This document shows positions 47,107-64,000 of a stretch of DNA of 64,000 bases, piece after piece; position 1 is the first letter of the stretch; every line of letters starts with the position of its first letter. The stretch is from Jaapia argillacea MUCL 33604 (Eukaryota > Basidiomycota > Agaricomycetes > Jaapiales > Jaapiaceae): the NCBI GenBank assembly GCA_000697665.1, contig KL197717.1, positions 897,950 to 961,949 on the forward strand. Direction: 5' to 3'. Made by a program: the position numbers and the translations under genes. Under the pieces are notes generated by a model, which saw nothing but the letters and a program-made list of their open reading frames with translations, was not told the origin of the DNA and did no database searches.

Positions 47107-47829
47107 ATGTTCGTTCGTCACCCCATGGTTAACTTGACTGAGCAAATAACCAAGGCCATCATGGACATTATACGAATCGATCAGCTCGCATCCGCTCGCG
47201 ATGCCAAGATTTTGGGCAAGAGTAGCGTTGCGAATTTTCTCAAATGGGTCAACTCCGCCGACGCCCTGGCTATCGGAGTCGAGAATATTTCAATACGCGA
47301 ACTTAGGTGGGGCAAGAGCCCAGGCAAACCATCCCACGAGTATCTCATCATGGTCCTTGACCATGGGGCCCTTCGTGCCGAACGTGATGCCCCATCCTGG
47401 TACTCCATTCTTTCACCAAACTATCGTGACAAGTGCGAGGACACTATTATATACAAGAACACCCCTGAAGAACTCCTGGACCATCGTGATGAAGTCCTGG
47501 CTACTCTCCACTTTCGTAAAGGTGATGTCCAGGTCTTCCATTTGGCATTGCTTCTTTCAGCTATCAGCGAGAAGGCTGATTTTTACAATGTCTACACAAT
47601 TAACTGCTGGTGGTATACCTGCTGCTTGTGGAACAATTTGGCCAAGCTTCCACACCAGTCCCAATACCGCTTTCATATGAAGATAGATTGGATTGATGAT
47701 GGTAGCATTATCAAGTGGAATCCAATCAGATTTGGCCGTAGAATGCAGCTCATACATATAGGTGGTGTTCGACGTGGGATTGGGGCTGATGGACATCGTG
47801 TGGGAAGAATAGTGGAGAGAGTGTTGTAA
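47107..47829 (+). CDS. Orphan protein with His...Asn-Cys motif
   Basis: Single open frame of about 240 codons from MFVRHPMVNLTEQI (alternative Met at 47125). It contains ISIRELRWGKSPGKPSHEYL, LHFRKGDVQVFHLALLL, and YTINCWWYTCCLWNNL, then a basic C-terminus. Many agaric orphan proteins carry such an N-C-W/Y-W segment after a conserved His. That spacing recalls papain-fold folds (NlpC/P60, PPPDE), but this is only a resemblance. It lies 81 bp before the HEAT-repeat gene on the same strand and might be its 5' part. Confidence 0.6.
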   Translation: MFVRHPMVNLTEQITKAIMDIIRIDQLASARDAKILGKSSVANFLKWVNSADALAIGVENISIRELRWGKSPGKPSHEYLIMVLDHGALRAERDAPSWYSILSPNYRDKCEDTIIYKNTPEELLDHRDEVLATLHFRKGDVQVFHLALLLSAISEKADFYNVYTINCWWYTCCLWNNLAKLPHQSQYRFHMKIDWIDDGSIIKWNPIRFGRRMQLIHIGGVRRGIGADGHRVGRIVERVL

Positions 47830-47910
47830 GAGGTGGAGATTACATTTCAAAGACATCAAAGGGGTGCAATCCTTTCCCACTTGGGAAGACTAATCAATTG
47901 GGGATGTAAC

Positions 47911-50327
47911 ATGTACATCTCAGGGTATCTGAAAGAGATTGGTCAAATATTGAGGAATGGTATGATTTATTTCTACATTAAAATTTGCACTTGATATGAC
48001 TAATTATCCTTAATTACTGAACTACTAGATGCAGTCAATGGCTGTATTTTGCAGCTTATAAATATTCTTGAGAAAGAAAAGTCTACCAAGAAAGAAACTG
48101 CCTCAGAGAGGGCCACAATACTTGCTCAATATAGTAAGACTCACTAAGCCTAGCATATATATGGTTAATTGTTGTTAACAGCTAGGCTACAAGAAGATAT
48201 TGATGGCTGTATTGCTCAGCTTGCAGATCTGCTCAAGAGTCAAGAGTTTAGTATACAGAAAACTGCTGCACAGACAACAGCAATACTTGCTCACTATAGT
48301 AAAGTTTCAAAAACATACCAGTTATATAACTGACTATTCTCAATAGCTACACAGCAAGGTGCAATAAATAGCAGTCTCTCTCAGCTTGAAAATCTGCTTG
48401 AGAATGAAGTGTCCAGTGTGCAGATGACAACTGCAAATACTATGGCAACACTTGCTCAATATAGTAAGGTTGTAAAAATATAGCATTGATATGACTCATG
48501 GTTCTCGACAGCTGGACTGCAAAAGACAATTGATAGCAACATTTCTCATCTAGAAAATTTACTAGAGAATAAACAAGTGTATGGGCAAAAAGCTGCTGTA
48601 CAGATGATTACAGCACTTGCTCAATATAGTAAGGTTTCAAAAACATGGCATTTATGTGACTCATTACTTTAAACAGCTGAACTGCAAGACACAATCAATG
48701 ACAACATCCCTCAACTGGCAACTTTACTAGATGATATGAACTCTTATGTGCGAGAAGCTGCTGCAAACATGATGGTAAAACTTGCTCAATCTAGTAAGGC
48801 TTTAAAGCTATGGCATTCTTATCACTCATTATTCTTAACAGCTAAACTGCGAGAGACAATCAATGGCAACATCCCTCAACTGGCAAATTTGCTGGAGGAT
48901 GAGAGCTGGATTGTGCAAGAAGCTGCTGTAGAGACCATGGCAACACTTGCTCAATATAGTAAACCTTAAAAAATATGGCATTTTCATTACTCATTGTTCT
49001 TAATAGGTGAACTGCGAGAGACAATCAATGACAACATCCCTCAGCTAGCAAATCTACTGGAGGATATAAACTCTCATGTGCAAGAAGCTGCTATAAAAGC
49101 TATGGGAACACTTGTCCAATATGGTAAGGCTTCAAAATTCTGGCATTTTTATTACTCATTGTTGTTAATAGCTGACTTGCAAGATACAATCAATAGCAGT
49201 ATCTGTCAACTGATGAATCTGCTGGAGAATGAGTACCAGAAAAGGCGAACAACTGCTGCAAAAGCTATGGCAACACTTGCTCAATATAGTAAGGTTTCCA
49301 AAATATGGCCTTTTCATCACTCATTGTTTTGAATAGCTGAACTGCGAGAGACAATCAATGGCAACATCCCTCGACTGGCAAACTTGCTATGGGATATGGA
49401 CTCTGATGTGCGAGAAGCTGCTGTAGAGACCATGGCAACACTTGCTCAATATAGTAAGACTTTAAAATTATGGTATTTCCATCACTCATTGTTCTCAACA
49501 GCTGACTTGCAAGAGACAATCAATGGCAATATCCCTCAGCTGACAAATCTGCTAAATGATGAGAACTGGAGAACACAAATATCTGCTGCAAGAACTATAG
49601 TAGCACTTGCTCAATATAGTAAGGATTCAAAAATATGGCATTTTCATCACTTATTGATCTCAATAGCTGAACTGCAGGAGACAATCAATGGCAACATCCC
49701 TCAACTAGTAAATCTGCTGGAGGACAAGGACTGGACAAGTCAAACAACTGCTGCAAAAGCTATGGCAATACTTGCTCAATATAGTAAGGCTTTAAAAATA
49801 TAGCATTTTTATCACTTATATTTCTGAACAGCTGAACTGCAAGAGACAACTAATGGCAACATCCCTCGACTGGCAAATTTGCTACAGAATATGAACTGGA
49901 GAACACGAATAACTGCCATAGAAACCATGGCAACACTTGCTCAATATAGTGAGGCTTTAAAATTATGGCATGTCCATTACTTATTGTTCTGAACAGCTGA
50001 ACTGCGAGAGGCAATCAATGGCAACATCCCTCGACTAGCAAATTTACTACAGGATCCATACTTTGATGTGCAAGAAGCTGCTATAGAGACCATGGCAACA
50101 CTTTCTCAATATAGTAAGGCTTCAAAATATGGCATTTTCATCACTCATTGTTCTCAATAGTTGAACTGCAAGAGACAATCAATGACAATATCCCTCAACT
50201 AGCAAATCTGCTAGAGGATAAGCACCACATTATGCAAAGAGCTGCTGTACAGACCATGGAAAGACTTGCTCAATATAGTAAGGCTTCAAAAATATGGCAT
50301 TTTCATCACTCATTGTTCTCAACAGAT
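47911..50327 (+). CDS. HEAT/ARM-repeat protein, 3' end replaced by an LTR
   Basis: The first exon, 47911-47959, reads MYISGYLKEIGQILRN. Exon 1 (48029-48133) is 105 nt. Thirteen exons of exactly 117 nt then follow, starting at 48182, 48347, 48512, 48677, 48842, 49007, 49172, 49337, 49502, 49667, 49832, 49997 and 50161. All are phase 1-1 and each encodes one 39-residue helical repeat, consensus-like ELQETINGNIPQLANLLED plus VQEAAVETMATLAQY. Introns are 48 nt (the last is 47) and also nearly identical, so the unit is 165 bp of exon plus intron. Every repeat is open after splicing. One base after the next splice acceptor (50325) an LTR begins, so the 3' end is missing. A scaffold/protein-binding role is typical for HEAT proteins. 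Confidence 0.82.
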
Positions 50328-50824
50328 GTCATGGACATGTCTGGACTTGTGCAGTTTCATTTGTATTGTGTGCATTTTATTCTTTTACTGGACTTCACTC
50401 ACTTTGTATCATTTCCACTGTCTATGATACTCAGTATGATTCTTGTCTCATCTTATCTTATCTTATCTCATCTCATCTTATCTTATCTCAGACTTTGTAC
50501 TGTTATTAGCACACAATGACTCACCCTGTACAGCCTCATCATTGTTCTCCATTTCCATTGTTCTACCTTCTATTATCTCTGAACTTTAACCCATTTGCCA
50601 TTGTTCAAGTACATTGTCTCACTTGTTATTGTCCTTAGTACATTTTTTGACTTTCCATTGTTCTCTTAGTATACAAGAATGTCTAGCTACTCTGTATTCA
50701 GTAGCTTGTCCACTTGAACAATACAGTGCCTTAGTTGTATCCTTCAACCAGTTTGCTCATTCCCGTCATCCTGTATTGCCTCAAGATTGTAGCCTGAGTA
50801 CTAGTTACTAAAGCACTCCTAACA
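50327..50824 (+). repeat. Old LTR of the Ty3/Gypsy family (about 498 bp)
   Basis: Diverged relative of the 530-bp LTRs at 53545 and 62230, starting TGTC and ending AACA. It carries a repeated CTTATCTTAT tract, the AGCTTGTCCACTTG segment and the same terminal region. It is followed at 50825 by the same primer-site sequence and leader, so it is a 5' LTR of an older, truncated copy rather than a solo LTR. Confidence 0.85.
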
Positions 50825-51500
50825 CTTGGACAAGCTCTTACCAACTCTACTCACTCTATGATGCTGACATAGTCAGGATCTGTAATCCCATCACCCACGC
50901 ACATCCAGTCCAGTAATTTACTCATTGACTTTGTCAACTTTGCATTATGACTTGATTGGTACATACAAAGACACTTTCTAACACCAATCACACTGTTACG
51001 AGCACCTTAGCATTTAGCAAAGGTAGCGAGTAAGACTTGTAAGTCCTTTGGATACTTCGCTTTACCAGATACTCAGGCTACAACAAATTGAGGCAGTAGA
51101 GGATGACGGGCAAGAGCGAACCAGTTGAAGGGTACAGGCTAAGATGCTGTATTGTTCAAGTGGACAAGCTTAAGAAATACAGGAGGGCGAGAGTGCCTTA
51201 TATACTAGGGCCAGGAAGAGAGAATGTAGTAGAATGGTATAGAAGGCGCTAAGAATAGCATCCAGGGAATACAAGAGAACGTAGTGGAAAGTGAGAGAAT
51301 AAGGAGGAAGATCCAAGGGATCGGTAACCGGCTGAAGAAGGTATAGAACGAGAAGGCAAACTAATAATAGTACAGCGAGATATAAATAGAACGAGTCTGG
51401 GAGAAGGCGCAGTAAGACGGGATAAGACGTCCGAGATAAGATAAGATAACGAAAAATGAAACAGGTATACAAAGTCGTAACACACACTGGCTGAACAAGA
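50825..51500 (+). mobile_element. Leader fragment of the older LTR element, interrupted
   Basis: Resembles the leader after the LTR fragment at 62982. It is split by the inverted solo LTR at 50994-51482 and resumes as TGGCTGAA afterwards. Similarity fades near 51500. Fossil. Confidence 0.7.
50994..51482 (-). repeat. Solo LTR, second subfamily, inverted, with target duplication
   Basis: Read on the minus strand it begins TGTTACGACT and ends CTCGTAACA. It contains TATATAAGG and AGCTTGTCCACTTGAACAATACAGC, so it is related to, but distinct from, the main LTR. The 5-bp repeat CACAC flanks it at 50989-50993 and 51483-51487. The flanking leader reads through when it is removed. No coding part remains. 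Confidence 0.88.
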
Positions 51501-52600
51501 AGCCTGTTACAAACCATGCCTTAGTAGGACTGTTTTCACTTTTCTTTTCTTTAGGCTTGCTACTGGTGTGTGTGGTAGATACCAGCCAGATAGCAGAGTT
51601 TCAATTATTTTTCCACGCCTGAGACACATGGCTGTAGTTACTATATTCAGACATTTTGGGTGCATTTTCTCGTGGTCCTTCTGATGCTTGTAGCTCCTCA
51701 TCCACAGCCTCTCAGACAACCAAACAAATTCAGAAAAATCCGAATTTTATCTACAAAAAGGTCTTTGGTCTTTATCCACCCACTAGACTCAAGAAAGCTA
51801 ACTTTTATCCACTTATTCTGCCTGTACCGCTGGGTTCTTAAGTTTGCTTGTTGATGGACAACACCCCAGGACCCATCAGTTGTCAGAAGTGACTTTGGTA
51901 ATGGGTTTGATGAATTGTACAGGGCACAGAAAGATCTCCCTGAGTGTAACAATCACAAAGTGGGAGATATTATAATGGGAACCAGGTGTGGCTATCAATT
52001 TCTTCCCAATTCTGATTTTGCTAGTTGTGAGCAATGAGAGATAGGTCAGATTTACTCATTGTACTATAGAGCTAGGCTTTCAAGGACTTGGACTAGGTAC
52101 AATCCTGTGGAGGTAGTAAAATGGTCATGAATGGCCTTGGGGTGGATTGGGACTCAAACTCAGATAGCCAGGGTGACAGGACTTGTACCAAGATTCAGTA
52201 AATTTCATCTCATTAGAGGTGTTTTGAAGCACGTAAATCCAGGTTTTTGAGTCATGTGGGTAGTTCAATGTGGAGTAGTAAGGCATTACTGTCTCTTACA
52301 ACCAAAATGGCAAAGTTTTAGGTTTTTTTTTGCACTTTGCCAAAGCCCAGAATGTCTGAATAATCAAGAAAAGAGTAATGCTAGTGTGAGTAAAAATTCC
52401 CTGTGATGTGTGATCGCCTTTGAGGTTGTGAGAGACTGAGAGTATAGTATTATTATCACTCAAGCAAACTGCTGATGATTTGAGATAGTTCTATATGTTC
52501 AAAATTTATGGCAGAACACACAGAATAGATACCAGTAGGTTTGAATACCAAACTGTCTCAGATACAACCAGAAATCCTGAGTAAAAAATAATTTATCAAA
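51501..52600. other. AT-rich accessory DNA, no gene
   Basis: Low-coding sequence between repeats; no domain recognised on either strand. Probably decayed repeat material. Confidence 0.4.
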
Positions 52601-52680
52601 AATGTTCTCACTCAGGATTGAACCAACACTCATCCACAAACAGGGGTAGAATATAACCACTTGGCCACAGGACCTTTGAA
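52601..52680 (-). repeat. tRNA-like / SINE-like element
   Basis: The minus strand has A box TGGCCAAGTGG (52667-52657) and B box GGTTCAATCCT (52624-52614) at tRNA spacing, preceded by AAAGGTCCTG. The arms do not fold into a clean cloverleaf. The body towards 52500 is AT-rich. A tRNA-derived SINE or decayed tRNA is the best guess. Confidence 0.4.
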
Positions 52681-52830
52681 GATAGTGGTATCTGAGTGTA
52701 TAGATAGCGAAAATAGCTCCACTATTTTTGATTATTCTTATTCTTATTCTTTTTCTTTTTCTTTTACCCACAAACACCAGTATCTTGCCTTTCTTTACTT
52801 TGCTTCATCATTTGACTACAGACTATGGAA

Positions 52831-53544
52831 TCCTATTTTCCTTTGACTCATCTTGACTCCTTTCTTACTCATCATTACTATGGACTACGGACTGTGCCAA
52901 CTACAGACTATGCTTCTATCCAGTATATATACCTGCCTGTATTCACTAATAGTCCCTATCTTGTTCAATTTGTCAATACAAGTCTTTACTTGCATTCCTA
53001 CAAAGTCTGACTTGGTCTTTATCCAGTTTCCTCTCTATTATCACCCTTATACCACCTCACTCTGTGTTGCAACCTAAGTACCATCAGAGAAGTACAAGTC
53101 TCGACCTTTGGTACTTCGTTGAAGTAATGACTTTAACACTTGAACAAGATCTCTCTTCTACTTACCTTCTAACCTCATTATCCAATGAAGTTATAGAAAA
53201 AGTTAGACAATTACCACCATTCTCACCACAAGTCATCCCACCTTTGTCAATCTTCTTGTTATTGTCATCAACTTCATTGTCAATCTACTGTTTTGGGCTA
53301 CCATCCAAAAAATAGAACTATCCCTTGTTACTGTTAAAGTCATTATTTCAACAAAGTACCTGAGGTCAAGACTTGTACTTCTCTAATGGTACTTAGGTTA
53401 CAATGCAGAGTGAGGATGATAAAGAGAGGAAACCAGAAAGAAACCAAGTCAGACTTTGTAGGAATGCAAGTAAAGACTTGTATTGACAAAGTGAACAAGA
53501 TGGGAATTATTAGTGAATACAGGCAGGTATATATACTGGATAGA
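52831..53544 (+). repeat. Long inverted-repeat (foldback) element, left arm, loop and inner right arm
   Basis: The left arm, 52831 to about 53138, is the reverse complement of 53332-53544 continued by 62765-62850. The arms are about 300 bp, close to 90% alike by eye, around a 193-bp loop. No transposase is present. The element is interrupted near the middle of its right arm by the chromovirus at 53545-62759. It resembles foldback or long-TIR MITE elements. Confidence 0.82.
53540..53544. repeat. Target site duplication ATAGA (left)
   Basis: Five bases directly before the 5' LTR, identical to 62760-62764 after the 3' LTR, as expected for Ty3/Gypsy integration. Confidence 0.9.
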
Positions 53545-54074
53545 TGTTGTGAACACATTTGGACCTGTATATTTTCCTCGTATTTTCATTCTTTTATTGG
53601 ACTTCCTTCGCTTCGTATCATTTCCCTTGTCTATGGTACTCAGCATCCTTTCACATTATCTTATCTCAGACTGTGTACTATTTATATCATACAATGACTC
53701 ATCTCGTACAGCCTCATACAGCCTCGCCATTGTTCTCTACTTCATTGTTCTATCTTCATTGTTCGTTGTCATTGTTCCGAACCTTAACTCGCTCACCATT
53801 GTCCTTAGACATTGTCTTGTTCGTTATTGTCTATAGTACATTGTTTGATATCTCATTGTTCCTGTAGTATATAAGGACACCTACCTACTCTGTATTCGGT
53901 AGCTTGTCCACTTGAACAATACAGCACTTTAGTTGTATCCTTCAACCGGTTCGCTCATTCTCGTCATCCTCTATTGCCTCAAGATCGTAGCCTGAGTACT
54001 AGTTAGCAAGAAATACCCAAAAGACTTACAAGCCTTATTCGCTACCTTATGCTAATGCTAAGGCGCTCATAACA
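53545..54074 (+). repeat. 5' LTR (530 bp)
   Basis: Starts TGTTGTGAAC and ends CTCATAACA. TATATAA box at 53868-53874. Same length as the 3' LTR. Confidence 0.93.
53868..53874 (+). promoter_or_regulatory. LTR TATA box
   Basis: TATATAA in the 5' LTR. Transcription would be expected to start 25-35 bp downstream, around 53895-53905, at or just before the segment that matches the primer site. Confidence 0.65.
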
Positions 54075-54087
54075 CTTGGACAAGCTC
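54075..54087 (+). other. Primer-binding site, self-complementary to the LTR
   Basis: The first bases after the LTR read CTTGGACAAGCTC. TGGACAAGCT (54077-54086) is the exact complement of AGCTTGTCCA at 53901-53910, near the expected mRNA 5' end. That is the arrangement of self-primed Tf1-like elements rather than tRNA priming. Confidence 0.7.
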
Positions 54088-55686
54088 TTACCAACCCTAC
54101 TCACTCTACGATACCGACGCAGTCAAGATCTACGATCATTCCACCCACACGCCCCATACACATCCAGTTCATCATCCTCCTACAATTTCTCAGTGACGTA
54201 CTCATTGACATCGCATTGCAACTCAATCGGTACCTACGAGAAATTCGACGAAAGTACAACGAATGCAACAACTAGCAAACTGACTCCAATCAAATCCATC
54301 ATTGCCACCGCACTCAACCTTCTAGCCTACAAACTCTATCGACTAGCTGAAAAGCTACAACCTAGACCGCAGGAAGTCTATCCAGAGTCGCAGCAATCCC
54401 AAGATTCCTTGTCACAGATCGACTAGATCTCATTCATCCATCACGACATCTTCATGAAACAACACAGAGTTTGGACATCAACCACACATGACTTGTCCAA
54501 ACCAACGCTGCCACCGAAACAGACATCACCCACATTGCGTTAACAACCCACGCAATGCACCACCAGCATACAACGCCCCATGAGCCACAACCAATAGGAA
54601 CCCAAATCCAGTCCCGATTCTGGCAGCAACCCCACGGCCTAACACACTTAGCTTCACAGAGTTCCTCATCAAATTCCACCACGTGATCCTCACAGCCATC
54701 CATTTTACAATCACCAACTACCTTATTCTCAACAAACGACTATCACCACCGAAACCCTAATCATTCCATATTCACTAATCTACATGGTCTTATCAGAACT
54801 CCTTGATATTCTCATCAATCTTTTGATCGGGATCCGCAATCTCCTTGTAATTCTGCACGAATACTTCTAATCAATCATCATCACGGAACGACCACAGATC
54901 AACCTAAAAGAAGGGTTCCAAGTAGCAACCCCTGAAGATCTCCGCCCTCTAGAAGGAAACGATTTCAGACTATTACAATATGATCCAATCTCCCAACTCC
55001 TTTACTACGATCAGAAGATCTTAGTTTGGTACTCAAGCCAAGATCCAGCAACCAACCAGATCAAAAAGGAACTTCAAGTTACTAAACACAGCCAATACCC
55101 ATACTGAGACAAATTCCCCACATACCACGATTGGGAACAGGAACAACTACAGGCACTATCGCCTAGAGAACCCAAACCACTATCAGTACTCCACGCATCT
55201 CCAACCTCTTACGCTGCACCGGAACCAACTAGTTCCACATCAGAACTACTACCTTATCATAATCCATATTCTAGGCCAGGGACCCCAAAGACTCCTCGAT
55301 TACATTCTCCTCGACTTCCCTCATGAGCCCCATCTCAATTACGCACAAGAGAACCTATTGACTACACCACCAATCCTTCTACAGCATCTCCACACACTCT
55401 CACGCCAAGCAGATCATTCAAAGCACCAAGCGATACTGATGAAGAGAAGGAGAACTCAGAAGAAGAAGACCACACCGTATGACAACCACTTGGTACAGAC
55501 AGCGTACCAACCGAGGCACAGGACCCTGAAACCAATCTGATTGATCCTCAAGAAAACGAACCTATAGACACCGAACACCCTTTTGTCAACCCATCAAACC
55601 CTCTCGATCCAGTTGTATTCTAACCTCGACAACCGCCTTCTCCACCCACACCACCACCGATTCCTCCACCACCGCCACCAGTAATC
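54088..55686 (+). other. Element leader and N-terminal gag region
   Basis: Long leader, then Pro- and Thr-rich coding sequence before the gag core. Fossil; no complete frame is claimed. Confidence 0.5.
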
Positions 55687-56503
55687 ATGACCACTCCCAC
55701 ATGCAAAGGACCCAAACTGGCTGCACCAACTCCATTCACAGGGGACCGTCGTAAAACCGACAAATTCTTATCTGAAGTCAAATTGGTACTAGGCGCCAAT
55801 AAAGGAGACTTCCCAGACGAATGGTCCAAAGTTGCCTACAGCCTTTCATTTATGAAGGAAGGCACGGCCAGATCATGGGCCATGCAACTATTGGAGGACA
55901 TAGAAGCATCGAAAGCATCGGCCATAAAGATAAGGGATGACTGGGAAGAATTTGCCAGAGCATTGAAGGAAGCCTTCGGCGAATTGGACAAAGGAGCTAT
56001 GGCAAGAATGCAGATCCAGAATCTGCACCAAGGTTGTGCCACTGTTGATCAGTACATTGCTAAATTCGAAGACCTCGCTCGCCACACCAAATTCAACGAT
56101 CTAGCCTTGTGGGAATACTTCAAACGAGGACTTAATTGGGACATCCTCAAGGTTCTTGTACATCTTCCCACACCACCTAGTACTTTCGCCAAATTCAAAG
56201 CCGCTGCTATCTGAGAAGACCTACATCGCGAACAGGCCAGGAATGAAGAATCCTGGTGGTTTCGGAAATCCAAACCCATCTACCCTGACACAAATGAACA
56301 TCTACCATTGTATAATCAGAATCATCAATCCACTAGGCTCGACATGGGTGTACCCATGGACATTGACACTGCGAAATTCAAATGTTCAGGGACGACGACT
56401 CGATTTAAGAAGCTTACAGACGCAGATAGAAAGGCTTTGTGAGATAGAGGAGCATGCTTCTACTGTCGCAAACCTGGACACTTCTCCAACAAATGTCCCT
56501 GAA
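55687..56503 (+). mobile_element. gag region with zinc knuckle
   Basis: The retrotransposon gag core reads TPFTGDRRKTDKFLSEV and later VDQYIAKFEDLARHTKF. A CCHC zinc knuckle, CFYCRKPGHFSNKC, is visible near 56452-56499. Broken. Confidence 0.85.
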
Positions 56504-56705
56504 AGAGACCAGGACAAAGAAGATTCCCCAATCGATTCCAGGCACGAGTAGCAGAAGTGGAAAGAGAAGAAGAGGGACACCCCCGATCCACTATGGAAAG
56601 GATCGAGGAACTACTGAAAGAAACAGCAGATGACAAGAAGGAGGAAGTTGTTCAGGGAATTCAGGAACAACTTTCCAAATTGGGTTTTTAAAGCACCTTC
56701 CATTA

Positions 56706-57185
56706 GTGGCGAATGAGAAGGTAATTGGACGTTTCTCCCATAATTATAACAGATATAACACTTTGGACATTCTGGACTCGATAAATGTATCCATGCTTAG
56801 GAATTCAGGAACTCCTTCATTGTGTATTCAGGTGGAACTTATCAGGAGAAACAAAACCGCCACAACAGAGGCTCTAATCGACAGTGGAGCCACAGGAAAC
56901 TTAATCAGTTATGAATACGCACTCAAGAAACAGATGCCCCTCCAAAAACTAGCAAGGCCCATACCCATTCATAATGTCAACGATACCGAGAATACAAATG
57001 GAGAAATCAATCATTATGTTGAATTGGGCATCAGGATATATGGGAGGGAGGGAGGACAACATGAAGAAAAAAACCACCTCTACATAACCAACATCGGGAA
57101 AAGTAACATCATTTTGGGAAGTGACTGGTTACTCGAACACAATCCAGAGATCGACTGGCGATCTTACATCCTCGAATTCACATGA
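56706..57185 (+). mobile_element. Aspartic protease region
   Basis: A retropepsin-type active site, EALIDSGATGNLIS, lies near 56870, followed by the second lobe IILGSDWLLEHNP. Part of the chromovirus. Confidence 0.85.
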
Positions 57186-57572
57186 TGCCCTGAAACTTGC
57201 AATATATCCGAAGAAGGAGTAACCGCTCAAACAAAACCCAAATTACAACCACCCAAAGCAAGGGTCGAAACAGAACCACCTGTCGTCAGAACCACACGAA
57301 CCAAACCGCCTAAACGAAATACAATCATAGAACTACCAAAAGAACTTTGGATAAATGATGAAACACTTCAGATCGAGACAGATGCCCACAGATGGGCGTA
57401 CGAGGGGATCAAAGCATATAGAGTCCAAATTGGAGATCCCATACCAGAAGACGACAACACCATTGACGACACCGAACATCTGACAATAGTACAGATTCGG
57501 GCACAAGGAAATAAATCAATCGAATTAGCGGAAAGAGCTGCTCAGGGTCAGAAAGAAAAATCCTTAGAAGAA

Positions 57573-58440
57573 ATGGTGCCAGAGGAATATCAGAAATACC
57601 GGAAGGTATTCGAGAAGGGAGCATCAGAACGATTCCCTATACCAAGACCTTGGGACCATGCCATTGAACTCAAGAATGGATGGAAGCCAAATAACTGCAA
57701 AACATATCTGCTATCGCCAGCAGAACAAAAGGAACTTGATTCGTTCCTAGAAGAACAACTACGAAAGAAGTACATCTGACCTTCTAAATCCCCATTATCG
57801 TCACCATTTTTCTTTGTCAAAAAGAAGGATGGGAAACTTTGACCAACTCAAGATTACCGATACCTGAATTCCCAAACCATCAAGAACGCATATCCCATCC
57901 TGTTAATATCAGAACTAGTTGACAAACTAAAAGGAGCTAAGGTCTATTCCAAACTGGACCTTTGCTGGGGATACAATAACGTCAGAATCAAAGAAGGAGA
58001 CGAATGGAAGGCCGCATTCAAAACCAATCGAGGGTTATTCGAACCCCGAGTCATGTTCTTCGGTCTCACGAATTCGCTGGCAACATTCCAAACAATGATG
58101 AATGAGTTATTCAAAGAACTCATCGATGAAGGTTGTGTAGTCGTATACCTGGACGACATCCTAATATTCACAAAGGATCTCAGACATCATTGACAAATCC
58201 TCCATCGCGTAATGAAGATCCTGTAAGACAATGATTTATTTCTCAAACCAGAGAAATGCACATTCAAAGTACCAAAAATCAAATACTTAGGATTAATTGT
58301 ATCCCACAATCTTGTGGAAATGGATCCAATCAAGGTTGCAGGAATCACGGAATGGCCAGAGCTGAAGAAAGTCAAGGAAGTTCAATCATTCCTCAGATTT
58401 TGTAACTTCTACCAATGATTCATCAAGGACTTCTCCCGAA
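57573..58440 (+). mobile_element. Reverse transcriptase region
   Basis: Contains YLDDILIF at about 58145-58168 and the upstream [13 protein letters not shown]-type motif. Interrupted, so fossil. Confidence 0.88.
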
Positions 58441-58451
58441 TCGCGAAACCA

Positions 58452-58859
58452 TTGTTTGAGTTGACAAAGAAGGATCATGAATGGGAATGGACTCCAAAAT
58501 GCCAAGAAGCATTCAACACCCTGAAAACAGCATTCACATCATCCCTGACACTGGTCATGCCAGACACTACGAAGGAATTCCAAATAGAATGCAATGCCTC
58601 TGACTATGCAACTGGAGCTGTGTTAACTCAGAAAGAAGCAGACAGCAAATGGCACCCAGTCGCATACCTGTCCAAATCCCTAACCAATACCGAGAGGAAT
58701 TACGACATTTATGACAAGGAACTACTAGCAATAATCAGATCATTGGAAGCTTGGCGCCATTACCTCGAAGGATGTGTGCACCCTATCCAGATATACACAG
58801 ATCACAAGAACCTTGAGTACTTCCGAAATGCGCAGAAACTAAGCCGCAGACAGGCCTGA
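58452..58859 (+). mobile_element. RNase H region
   Basis: Reads FQIECNASDYATGAVLTQ, then YDIYDKELLAIIRSLEAWR and IYTDHKNLEYF, the Ty3-type RNase H. Confidence 0.88.
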
Positions 58860-59099
58860 TGGGCCCAATTTTTGACAAGATTCAAATTCAATCTGATTCA
58901 CAAACCTGGGAAGACAAACAAGTCTGATGGTCTTTCGAGACGACAAGACCATAAGGAGGGGGTGGATTCAGATAATTCAGACAGAATACTATTAGGCCCC
59001 AATCTTTTCACGAAAACAATCAATCTTACAGGTTGAGGAAACACCTCAACCCACTCCCCCACACTAGCACGACAAGTTCGAATCGCCCTCAGAGCGGCT

Positions 59100-60968
59100 A
59101 TCACAACATTAGAAGGTGATTTAGGACTCAAAGAGGAAATTCAGAACCACACACAACTCGACGAATCAGTAGCAACAGCCTTAGACATCATAAGGAAACA
59201 AGGACCACGATCCTTGAAGAGGGGACTAGAGGAATGGAATCAGGAAGACGGATTAATCCTCTATCGAGGAAAGATCTACGTCCCCAAAGACACGGAATTA
59301 CGATGCAAAGTGGTCAAATCATGTCATGACCCCATATTGATGGGACATCCAGGGAGATATAAGACGTTGGAATTAGTATAAAGGGACTATTGGTGGCCAG
59401 GAATGTCCATCTTCGTACAAAATTACATCAATGGATGCGCCACCTGTCAATCAATCAAACCAAACACCAACCCCACTCAGGAACCACTACATCCAACAGA
59501 AATCCCAACATGTCCCTGGCAGATCGTAACACAAGATTTCATCACAGGATTACCAGAAGCAGATGGTTATGATTCAATCCACGTCATAACCAATCGATAC
59601 ACCAAAACTATCGTTGCTACACCCTGCAATAAAACCATTGACACTGATGGGACAGCCAAGATTCTAATGGAAGGACCATTCCGATGTTACGGATTGCCTG
59701 ATAAGATCATATCAGATCGAGGACCGCAATTCGTATCACAAGTGTTCCGAGCCATTCTAGAACGACTCAACATCAAATCCGCTCTCAGCACAGGATTTCA
59801 TCCAGAAACAGATGGAGCTACAGAGATAGTCAATAAGGAACTAGAAATCTACTTCCGAGCATACTGCAATCGCGCCCAAAACAATTGGCCATCATTACTC
59901 TACACCACCGAATTGACCCACAACACACAAATACACTCCGCCACCAAACAAACACCGTTCGAACTCATGCATGGCTATCGCGCCAAAACCTCTGGAACAT
60001 TCAGACCAATACCAGATATACCAACTGCAGACCAACAACTGGAAGAATTAAAGAAATCCAGACAAGAAGCAGAAGCTTGCTTACATATTGCTGCCAAAGC
60101 AATGAAGAAGCAAAATGACACCTATGGAATCAAAGGACCGAATTTCGCAGTAGGAGATAAAGTTTGGTTAGAAGGAAAGAATGTCAAAACGGAATACCCC
60201 AGTGCCAAACTATCTCCCAAACGACATGGACCTTTCCCAATCAAAGCAACCATTGGTTCTGGTGCCTACAAGCTGACGCTACCAAAGAAATGGAGAATCC
60301 ATCCCGTATTTCATGCAGGATTACTCACACCATACCAAGAAACCAAAGAACACAGAATCAACTTCCCACAACCACCCCCAGATCTAATAGAAGGCGAAGA
60401 AGAATATGAAGTAGAGGAAGTTGTTAGATCGAAATTCGTAGGAAAAACCAAGAAAATCAAATACTTAGTCAAATGGAAAGGCTACCCTGAATCAGAAAAT
60501 ACTTGGGAAGATATTGGCAACTTACGCAACTCAGCAAAACTAGTCAATTACTTCCATCAGAAGAATCCAAAGGCACCGAAACCTGTGCAAATTGCACTCA
60601 CATTACTCAAAGTGCCTGAGGAACAATGGAGACGCTTTTGGATCAACAGAGAGGTAGAACAGACAACAAAGGAAAACTACCTACAAATTCCTGAAGTACT
60701 ATCAAAACGTCCGAACCCAGAACGTATAAAGGCACATCTGGCGAGACTGCAAAACTTCATTCCTTGCCGAATACTCCAGCAGCACCAGCAGTCTCTTAGC
60801 CCACTAGCTAAAACTCCAGCTCGACTATCATCTACTCTTGTCTCCCAACCAAACACCCTCCAACCACATCATGCTCTCAGTCATCAACACCATCTACCTC
60901 TACAACCACATCACTCCCACCACTCATTTCTTCATCAGTCCCCGTTACACCAGGAACGAACACGGTGA
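59100..60968 (+). mobile_element. Integrase with C-terminal chromodomain
   Basis: The zinc-binding end contains CATCQSIK. The catalytic core has IVTQDFITGLP, IISDRGPQF and DGATEIVNKELE, the D, D and E residues. The chromodomain is YEVEEVVRSKFVG then KYLVKWKGYPESENTWED (about 60405-60530). A Pro/His-rich tail follows. Confidence 0.9.
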
Positions 60969-60995
60969 AGTCGTCGACCGCGCTGACGTCATAGA

Positions 60996-62187
60996 ATGAG
61001 AATGAGGTCTTGTCACCGACCACCTGTGCAGGGCAGGATATCTTCAGGCATCCCTATGGACCCTCCGAAACAATCCCACTCAGATCAAGGCCCTCACCGT
61101 CGCCATGCACCACCCCACCACGAGCGAACTACTCGAGGAGTCCGAAGGGGTAGTTTACTACCCCACCCCAGTCGTCACTATCCGCTACAACCCCTCCAAA
61201 GACCTTCAGGCCAACACCTCCATCCTACCCCCACTTACTTGCCTCTGTCTACCCAAACTCCTGATAGTGGAACCCGTTCGGATTCACATCGACTCAGACA
61301 CCGACGTCGCCTCCAGTGCCTCCTACCACCCCGACTCCCTGACGTCCTCCCTCCATGAATCAGATTATCAACCCATCTCACCTCTCTTATCCGCCATGGG
61401 GGACTCCTCCTTCACATCCACTACCAACTTAGACCTCAAGGAACGACACCCCCGACCCTTCTCTGGACACCCATCAGCTTCGCCAGCAGACGCACCAGCA
61501 GACGCACCCAACCCCTGAGTACCGACCCCTCATCCATTCACACTAGTGGGTACGTATGCATTAATTCAGAGCGAAATATCTGATCACCCATCATTACCTT
61601 CTCTAGTATCTGTGCCTACCACCCCCACACCTGAATGGCCCTCTCCACCAACACCTCCAAATGAACCTTCGACTGTCAACTCATGGGGAGAAGGATGGAC
61701 TCAGGAGCAGGTAGACAAGTGGAATCAAACTCGCAACGAGGGATGGAACGAGGAAGCCATTATAGACTCAGAGAGCATCTGGCCTCAAACCAATAAGGAG
61801 AAGAGACGCCATCAACCCAAGTGCTGGGGATGTGGAGTATGGGGGCACACCATCTACTGGTGTAAAAAGACCAACTATTATAAGCCTGTTCTTCGATCAC
61901 GACCCACCACCACTCATTACAACTCAGCCAGCAATACCCTGCTTCCACCCCTACACTGGTCGACCCCTTCCATCCCATACGCCGACCGCATCCACACCGA
62001 AAATGACCTCTTTGACTTCCTTATGGAACGAGTATCGGCATCAGCGACCGCTCTCCAGACGGCTGAGTGGACCCACTCCTACTGGATTGAACAGGGAAAA
62101 CGTCTGGCTGGGTCAGATGGTCTCATGGGCCCTCAACTCCTCTCCTGGTACCCTTCTAAACCTGCCCCTGTCGCCCCTAAGGCTTAA
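60996..62187 (+). mobile_element. Extra 3' ORF region with zinc knuckle
   Basis: Between integrase and the 3' LTR lies coding-like sequence rich in Pro/Ser/Thr that ends in a frame with a second CCHC knuckle, CWGCGVWGHTIYWC (about 61828-61870). Chromoviruses usually end soon after integrase, so this is an additional ORF of unknown role. Fossil; frames are not joined here. Confidence 0.65.
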
Positions 62188-62216
62188 CTAGGACATTAGG
62201 GACAATGTCGGATTTT

Positions 62217-62229
62217 AGAGAGGGGGTGG
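62217..62229 (+). other. Polypurine tract
   Basis: AGAGAGGGGGTGG directly before the 3' LTR, the usual plus-strand primer. Confidence 0.75.
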
Positions 62230-62759
62230 TGTTGTGAACACGTTTGGACCTGTATATTTTCCTCGTATTTTCATTCTTTTATTGGACTTCCTTTGCTTCA
62301 TATCATTTCCCTTGTCTATGGTACTCAGCATCCTTTCACATTATCTTATCTCAGACTGTGTACTATTTATATCATCCAATGACTCGTCTCGTACAGCCTC
62401 ATACAGCCTCGCCATTGTTCTCTACTTCATTGTTCTATCTTCATTGTTCGTCGTCATTGTTCCGAACCTTAACTCGCTCGCCATTGTCCTTAGACATTGT
62501 CTTGTTCGTTATTGTCTATAGTACATTGTTCAATATCTCATTGTTCCTGTAGTATATAAGGACACCTACCTACTCTGTATTCAGTAGCTTGTCCACTTGA
62601 ACAATACAGCGCTTTAGTTGTATCCTTCAACCGGTTCGCTCATTCTCGTCATCCTCTATTGCCTCAAGATCGTAGCCTGAGTACTAGTTAGCAAGAAATA
62701 CCCAAAAGACTTACAAGCCTTATTCGCTACCTTATGCTAACGCTAAGGCGCTCATAACA
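62230..62759 (+). repeat. 3' LTR (530 bp)
   Basis: Same ends and length as the 5' LTR, about 98% identical by eye. Confidence 0.93.
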
Positions 62760-62981: not shown

Positions 62982-63580
62982 CTTGGACAAGCTCTTACCA
63001 ACCCTACTCACTCTATGATACCAACACAGTCAGGATCCACAAGCTCATCACCCACTAACACTCCATCCAGTAACATACTCATCAACTTCACAAGCTTTGC
63101 CTTATGACTCGATCAGTACATACAGAACACCACCCAACACCAAATCATACTGGCTGAAAGGTGGATTCACATTGATGCCTTCTTGGCAGTGTTCCTCTCC
63201 ATCACACATGATCTTGACCAGATCCACAACTACACCAACATCATTTTGGGAGACCTAGCCATACTTCACTCATGAGTAAACAACATCATTGAGCGAATAA
63301 AGAACCAATCTGAAGAAGCAGAACAACTTTGTCAACAGAACATCAACACCAGATGCTATAGCATAATTGCAATTATTCCAGCAAATAACAAGGAGGTGTT
63401 TGCAACTACCCCAGCAAATGTATTGCAATAAGTGCCAAGTCCTGTAGCATCAGTACAGCCAGGCTATCTGGGACCTGCTGAGACCATGCAGACCTGACCC
63501 TAGGGAATGTCCAGAATGAAAAATGGTCATGTGACCAGGCCAACCACCCAAATCAGTAAATCGTTAACAATACCCCATAA
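62982..63580 (+). mobile_element. Leader fragment of an LTR element
   Basis: Begins with the same primer-site sequence CTTGGACAAGCTC and a leader alike to that at 50825. It then decays into unrecognised sequence. Confidence 0.65.
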
Positions 63581-63904
63581 AAATGGAAGTCAAACAATGT
63601 ACTATAGACAATAACAAACAAGACAATGTTCAGAGATAATGATGAGTGAATTAAGGTTCAAGACAATGACAATGAACAATGAGGAAAGAACAATGAAACT
63701 GAGAACAATAACAAGGCTATACAAGGCAAGTCATTGTGCACTAGTAATAATACAGAGTTTGAGATAAGATAAGATAAGATAAGATAAGACTGAGCCAAGT
63801 ATCATAGACAAAGGAAATGACACAAAGGCAAATAAAGTTCAAGGAAAAGAATAAAATACATACAATACAAATGAAAATTTATAAGTCTGAACATATTCAC
63901 AACA
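63581..63904 (-). repeat. Inverted LTR fragment, 5' portion
   Basis: The minus strand starts TGTTGTGAATATG and carries the repeated CTTATCTTAT tract. It ends before the TATA region. An old truncated copy in opposite orientation. Confidence 0.8.
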
Positions 63905-64000
63905 TATCGTTTGCACAATGTTCTACTCAACACTCAGTGAGTTTTGTGGAAAGCTAACAGTGTAGAATATTGTGTAGGCATCACAAGTAGGATGGGTTAA
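63905..64000. other. Unassigned edge sequence
   Basis: AT-rich, no feature seen. Confidence 0.3.

Follow-up and report, generated by a model that had tools for sequence, protein, structure and literature searches.

The window, a stretch of 64,000 nucleotides corresponding to C9:897950-961949 (C9 being contig KL197717.1), holds an array of short exons, here termed W, with an exon for an N-terminal domain before it and a high-copy repeat behind it. Sister arrays A and B lie on the same contig, and the genome searches covered a single assembly of 43.7 Mb in 95 contigs. The features of the window copy are as follows.

47161..47959, + strand: exon of the N-terminal orphan domain (N-domain), with an in-frame TAA inside; start assumed at ATG 47161, a phase-1 GT follows at 47960; aligned with two paralogs
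47827..47829, + strand: the in-frame TAA; sense codons in both paralogs; lies within GTAAGAG, a consensus-like 5' splice site
47960..48028, + strand: putative intron 0, between N-domain exon and array; boundaries placed by eye from the alignment
48029..48133, + strand: exon E1, first HEAT unit, 105 nt (four codons short of 117); acceptor predicted
48134..48181, + strand: array intron 1, 48 nt, from exon-by-exon translation
48299, 48464, 48629, 48794, 48959, 49124, 49289, 49454, 49619, 49784, 49949, 50114 (47 nt) and 50278, + strand: starts of the later introns
48182..50277, + strand: exons E2-E14, 13 x 117 nt, one 39-residue HEAT repeat each, from PF02985 on spliced E5-E14
50278..50325, + strand: 14th intron, intact GT-AG, no unit exon 3' of it, from donor spacing and translation
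50326..50996, + strand: LTR-like high-copy repeat adjoining the array, in the place of the paralogs' terminal exon, from LTR homology; related stretches continue to ~51207

Fourteen GT donors run from 48134 to 50278 at a spacing of 165 nt, with a last step of 164 nt. Exon-by-exon translation showed that E2-E14 are 13 stop-free exons of exactly 117 nt, phase 1-1, each encoding 39 residues. These exons enclose 12 introns, 11 of 48 nt and one of 47 nt; all 14 introns of W (13 of 48 nt and one of 47 nt) are in phase 1 with GT-AG ends. This is the gene structure that a sequence-only reading of the window had proposed, and translation bears it out. Tandem Repeats Finder independently reported a 165-bp array at 48431-50325 (score 1795). 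That reading called the array almost perfect, which is right for unit length and wrong for sequence: DNA identity among the 13 exons is 56-88%, with a mean of 72%. At the protein level, nine of the W units share 49-64% identity with E5 (the first column of this alignment is an artefact of the chosen frame). The introns, also said to be alike, are 56-92% identical among the 13 of 48 nt in W (mean 75%). When 25 such introns following 117-nt exons were pooled from the three arrays, mean identity over positions 7-45 was 75%, versus 30% (maximum 32%) in 200 shuffles. At position 50277 the preserved array ends; a gene end is not marked by it. Base composition shifts here as well: over 48001-54000, which takes in the array and the repeats that follow, G+C is 0.38-0.41, lower than the ~0.50 of the 48 kb before.

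The 48-nt stretches might not be introns at all, in which case the protein would consist of 55-residue repeats read straight through, or of a mixture produced by intron retention. Forty-eight nucleotides make 16 codons, and a Pfam HEAT match is found in an unspliced ORF of 156 aa. Moreover, the coding frame stays open through 20 of the 35 introns in the three arrays, whereas the shuffled expectation is 13.2 +/- 2.7. The openness is weak evidence, because the introns are copies of one founder and so not independent; the excess is probably a founder effect. Against read-through, coding-frame stops occur in 15/35 introns (9/14 in W) versus 0/32 internal exons, a count that leaves aside first and terminal exons (in A and B the first exon, too, is open). 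Intron lengths (28 of 48 nt, three of 55, two of 52, one of 51 and one of 47) include the non-triplet values 47, 52 and 55, which are confined to introns, and the variant array exons, at 105 and 108 nt, are all triplets. Differences between introns by position (0.224, 0.273 and 0.178) show no third-position excess. Splice signals are kept: GT-AG ends in 35/35 introns, and a branch-like CTNAY before the acceptor in 32/35, a motif that 24.5% of shuffled sequences show. Unspliced 55-residue repeats were rejected on three grounds: the stops in frame, intron lengths that are not triplets, and the lack of a coding pattern in introns. By these signs the introns look real, and we regard read-through or a retention mixture as very improbable. 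Open introns make up 15/21 of those in A and B, and the protein would gain 16 residues from a 48-nt intron that is retained.

The repeats had been named HEAT repeats from the letters alone, and the profile search agrees. The peptide spliced from E5-E14 (10 of 14 exons) matches PF02985 at 1.8e-46 with 152.1 bits, above the curated cut-off of 23.5. In the PDB, 36 distinct sequences matched this peptide at E <= 0.001; a PR65/A chain of PP2A scored best (5.6e-19), and the PR65/A-type HEAT alignment spans residues 50-388 of its 390. PR65/A is a housekeeping scaffold, in contrast to the array protein, whose likeness to it is one of HEAT sequence and does not extend to a known phosphatase partner.

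Array A lies near 824-826 kb of C9 on the same strand as W, and array B near 841-843 kb on the opposite strand, so that three arrays fall within 125 kb of one contig. The genome was searched by protein, by DNA and by pattern; among the matches listed, whose counts are lower bounds, matching units occur at W, A and B only, plus an inverted remnant beside A. A single 56-base match to the 3' flank of the query was found at C9:797826. Counting terminal exons, A has 12 exons and B has 11; W has 14, its terminal exon being lost. The orphan N-terminal domain that stands in front of W is also found before A and before B. The inverted remnant is a degraded fourth copy (L009 6499-9317), N-domain plus array remnant, that stands tail to tail with A and is broken in the domain by a ~1.3 kb insertion and a deletion. 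The Pfam HEAT profile gave eight listed matches over the genome, three in these arrays and five elsewhere (C20, C1, C2 twice and C32), and there may be further one-exon-per-repeat HEAT arrays of unlike sequence in this genome. The sequence right after the stop codon of array B (3' flank, L010) resembles fragments at L012 1840-1886 and 5037-5075, which are perhaps pieces of another local gene family.

Exons and introns of W appear to share a history. Distances between W exons correlate with those between the introns downstream of them (Mantel r=0.73, p=0.0004, n=12 units) and upstream of them (r=0.59, p=0.007, n=12). Units with odd-length exons or introns were dropped from these tests. For B, the downstream correlation is weak (r=0.43, p=0.045, n=7) and the upstream one absent (r=0.02, n=6); for A, neither is seen (downstream r=0.19, p=0.30; upstream r=0.00; n=6 each). 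Individual copying events can be picked out in both sister arrays. Exon B2 is 93% identical to B3, and the 52-nt introns that immediately precede these exons (1 and 2) agree at 98%, a single-unit copy. In A, a two-unit copy links A2-A3 to A5-A6 (87-88%); of the introns concerned, 2 and 5 agree at 90%, 3 and 6 at 85%. The W correlation and these two copies uphold the earlier proposal that the array grew by duplication of exon-intron units.

A tree was made of 34 exon units. To assign each unit to its array takes 8 label changes, whereas shuffled labels take 16.5 (0/200 as low), and the terminal exons of A and B group at 100/99. Many inner branches are weak (8/31 starred), and no array forms one clade. 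Because array labels cluster and the terminal exons group, the end units of A and B are orthologous and the interiors differ between arrays. Mean dS between units of different arrays, 0.51-0.67, is greater than N-domain dS, 0.35-0.47, a sign that some of the unit copying may be older than the copying of the gene. Taken together, these sequence comparisons make growth by whole exon-intron units, with separate turnover of the interiors, a well supported account. In it, each HEAT repeat occupies a single 117-nt phase-1-1 exon and has a short intron of its own. The sequences show that, once the gene had duplicated, each of the three copies gained and lost interior units independently, whereas the terminal unit of A and B stayed orthologous. 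Unequal crossing-over or slippage between units may drive the change in copy number. Gain or loss of a unit would be harmless to the frame, because phase-symmetric units carry their own splice sites. The sequence-only reading had further expected repeat number to be readily and rapidly changeable. Repeat number does differ between the paralogs; speed is not borne out for W, where no exon pair exceeds 88% identity and, for that reason, there is no sign of very recent growth.

Substitution rates were compared within arrays. For W, the values are 0.337 (pS), 0.272 (pN) and 0.245 (intron divergence), from 13 exons and the 12 following 48-nt introns. In each of the three arrays, introns have changed less than synonymous sites have. 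Neither simple co-duplication nor simple neutrality accounts for this; splice constraint or homogenisation would be needed. Overall within-array dN/dS is 0.58-0.85. Amino-acid change is clustered, around codons 21-30, the A-B turn and the start of helix B: in a column-permutation scan, the best windows fell between codons 21 and 32 (p 0.0003-0.001). Over codons 19-30, within-array pN is 0.417 versus a pS of 0.312 (30 full-length exons, two of 108 nt dropped), and codon positions 1, 2 and 3 differ at 0.461, 0.415 and 0.312. Bootstrap pN/pS is 1.05-1.69 in codons 19-30, a region chosen after inspection, and 0.47-0.62 elsewhere. For the same region, likewise chosen after looking, pN is 1.84 times intron divergence (bootstrap 1.64-2.16). 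Divisions drawn by hand on the HEAT consensus gave pN/pS of 0.46 for helix A, 0.87 for the turn, 1.25 for early helix B and 0.86 for the remaining helix B. The pN/pS excess tested against permuted columns was not significant (p 0.25-0.67). These data make positive selection on the turn and helix B suggestive, not proven.

In HEAT proteins, loops at the surface commonly tolerate variation. The array could be spliced and its repeat number neutral, with the turn/helix-B ridge of a scaffold varying under relaxed constraint and not under pressure from a ligand. The non-significant pN/pS scan and the overall dN/dS are consistent with this alternative to recognition; the excess of first- and second-position differences over third-position ones in codons 19-30, and a pN there above intron divergence in that post hoc region, argue against it. 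We hold it possible, and would sooner bet against it than for it. In PR65, the intra-repeat loops form a ligand ridge that binds small t antigen and B56, according to the available part of PMC1945078. The variable face of the array coincides with this known HEAT binding ridge, which suggests recognition and is no proof of it. The tunable binding surface of the sequence-only reading is plausible and unproven. That the variable turn/helix-B ridge binds a changing partner, making the protein a recognition scaffold, is a tentative reading, somewhat short of even odds.

A working gene at the window copy is not supported. Each N-domain carries one lesion: in W a TAA at codon 221 (47827), in A a TGA at codon 122 (codons of the aligned segment), and in B, by eye, the lack of an ATG at the expected start. 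B has no internal stop in its N-domain segment or array exons. A genome search counted more stops in its matches to A (4) and B (2), with a query that reached back beyond the assumed start into sequence not expected to be coding. At the other end of W, sequence from 50326 onward is homologous to an LTR pair (53545-54074 and 62230-62759) and to an inverted stretch at 63579-63905. This LTR-like repeat gave 48 listed matches genome-wide, with 40 of 258 candidates scored. The terminal exon of W was not found in the next 23.7 kb, comprising the end of the window and adjoining sequence. With a stop ahead of the array and LTR-like sequence in the place of the last exon, the W fusion is probably non-functional. 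By the readings tried, W could not make an N-domain-HEAT fusion; its array is itself undamaged, and the copy is probably decaying or broken. Bypass of the TAA through the overlapping GTAAGAG donor was considered by hand and rejected: that donor is in phase 2, unfit for the phase-1 acceptor at 48029. Further along, 53545-62759 is an LTR retroelement whose LTRs are 97.7% identical, with integrase core and chromo domains at 59382-60965.

All three loci could then be decaying pseudogenes and the array a fossil of past expansion with no present function. The single lesion in every N-domain points that way, and the family may be dying; so do the LTR-like sequence in place of the terminal exon of W and the broken inverted copy beside A. 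Set against this are the stop-free internal exons (0/32), exon length changes in triplets, GT-AG ends in every intron, and copy B, free of internal stops in both N-domain segment and array exons. A relic is a real possibility here, if one we would put below an even chance. The N-domain segments of W, A and B align in frame over 260 codons, bar the stops noted. N-domain dN/dS is 0.39-0.42 overall and 0.22-0.24 over the first 150 aligned codons; by these low values, the three segments were under purifying selection in the past.

The likeness to NLR genes drawn in the sequence-only reading was not supported. A NACHT profile search listed 50 matches genome-wide, the nearest listed to the W array being C9:1052516, ~104 kb away, and by this test the arrays are not NLRs. 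The genome as such is NLR-rich, with 50 NACHT and 46 DUF6533 matches listed. DUF6533 is a family that marks Agaricomycetes; together with the short introns and the gene content, it points to a fungus. Fungal NLR repeat domains show repeat-number polymorphism, and one Podospora gene is of the NACHT/TPR(HEAT) type, as stated in the accessible text of PMC4986451; HEAT is a major C-terminal type of Sordariales NLRs in the portion of PMC12258605 available. The arrays resemble such repeats, as those partial texts describe them, in forming superstructures, in turnover within and between loci, and in variable sites on the presumed binding face. Unlike them, they have no NACHT match near the loci and their repeats are split by introns. 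The repeats are not of the HNWD type, defined in the accessible part of PMC4986451 by identity above 85%: W units reach the 49-64% to E5 and the DNA mean of 72% given above. On the selection side of that definition, nonsynonymous clustering is significant here and the pN/pS scan is not.

Other parallels lie outside the fungi. Brown-algal ROCO (LRR) genes have one 72-bp phase-2 exon per LRR and, with NB-ARC-TPR genes, are candidate immune receptors according to the part of PMC11378527 available. The arrays share with both one repeat per exon, symmetric phase and tandem exon-intron units. In that partial account, exon shuffling acts on the algal receptors and their repeat domain is proposed to bind ligands, likewise the proposal here. 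They differ in that the repeats are HEAT and not LRR or TPR, the exons 117-nt phase-1 and not 72-nt phase-2, the organism a fungus and the loci found three. No ROC-COR or NB-ARC domain was recognised in the Pfam search of the upstream exon, which gave no match. As to a signalling or nucleotide-binding fusion of the algal type, a domain without Pfam or PDB match precedes all three arrays, and an attempted fold reached pLDDT 31. Tetrahymena LRR arrays have 90-bp exons with phase-2 introns, and unequal crossing-over has been proposed for them in the available text of PMC6564038. Exact exon length, uniform intron phase, tandem units and retroelements nearby are common to both, as far as that text goes. 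By the same text, Tetrahymena differs in having LRRs, phase 2, thousands of genes, introns of ~257 bp in the youngest T. thermophila group, and a non-LTR element; W differs in that an LTR-like repeat cuts the array off. Among the means of diversifying sensor domains, a review lists, in its accessible part, exon shuffling in brown algae and microexon splicing in Tuber (PMC10197012). A literature search by title and start of abstract, with partial coverage of subscription papers, found among the papers listed none on one-exon-per-HEAT-repeat arrays in fungi, which does not prove absence.

We favour, at a probability of roughly 0.7, a small local family in which an orphan N-domain is joined to a PR65-like array of 39-residue HEAT repeats, the units having turned over separately, and the product may be a recognition-type scaffold. 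A bolder version would make this a fungal non-NLR recognition family, with each HEAT repeat a free-standing exon-intron cassette on a widespread orphan N-domain. Shuffling, and possibly in-frame exon skipping, would then vary length and ridge, in parallel to the exon-shuffled receptors of brown algae. We think this version unlikely. What is new is the combination of HEAT repeats, a fungus, a 117+48 nt unit and an orphan N-domain. One-repeat-per-exon arrays, known for brown-algal LRR/TPR genes, and the similar LRR exon arrays known from Tetrahymena, are thereby extended to fungal HEAT. The introns serve as a second record of unit history, by which unit duplication can be separated from exon-only conversion. 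With three arrays found in 125 kb, the family is small enough that strain resequencing could measure repeat turnover directly.

The arrays also draw attention to the N-terminal domain, which is widespread, with 80 tblastn matches genome-wide (pieces, not genes). Eight members were aligned and share 29 invariant columns, including H59, C149, W150 and W151. None of the eight matches Pfam at E <= 5, and no PDB sequence turned up in a profile search at E <= 10. One peptide pattern each found no relative in prokaryote or viral contigs. A single-sequence AlphaFold2 model had a mean pLDDT of 31 and was unusable. The H...NCWW pattern may resemble permuted papain folds of the LRAT/PPPDE type. C-termini in the family of the domain at 47161-47829 are varied: by eye, coiled-coil-like, acidic, or with possible membrane helices.
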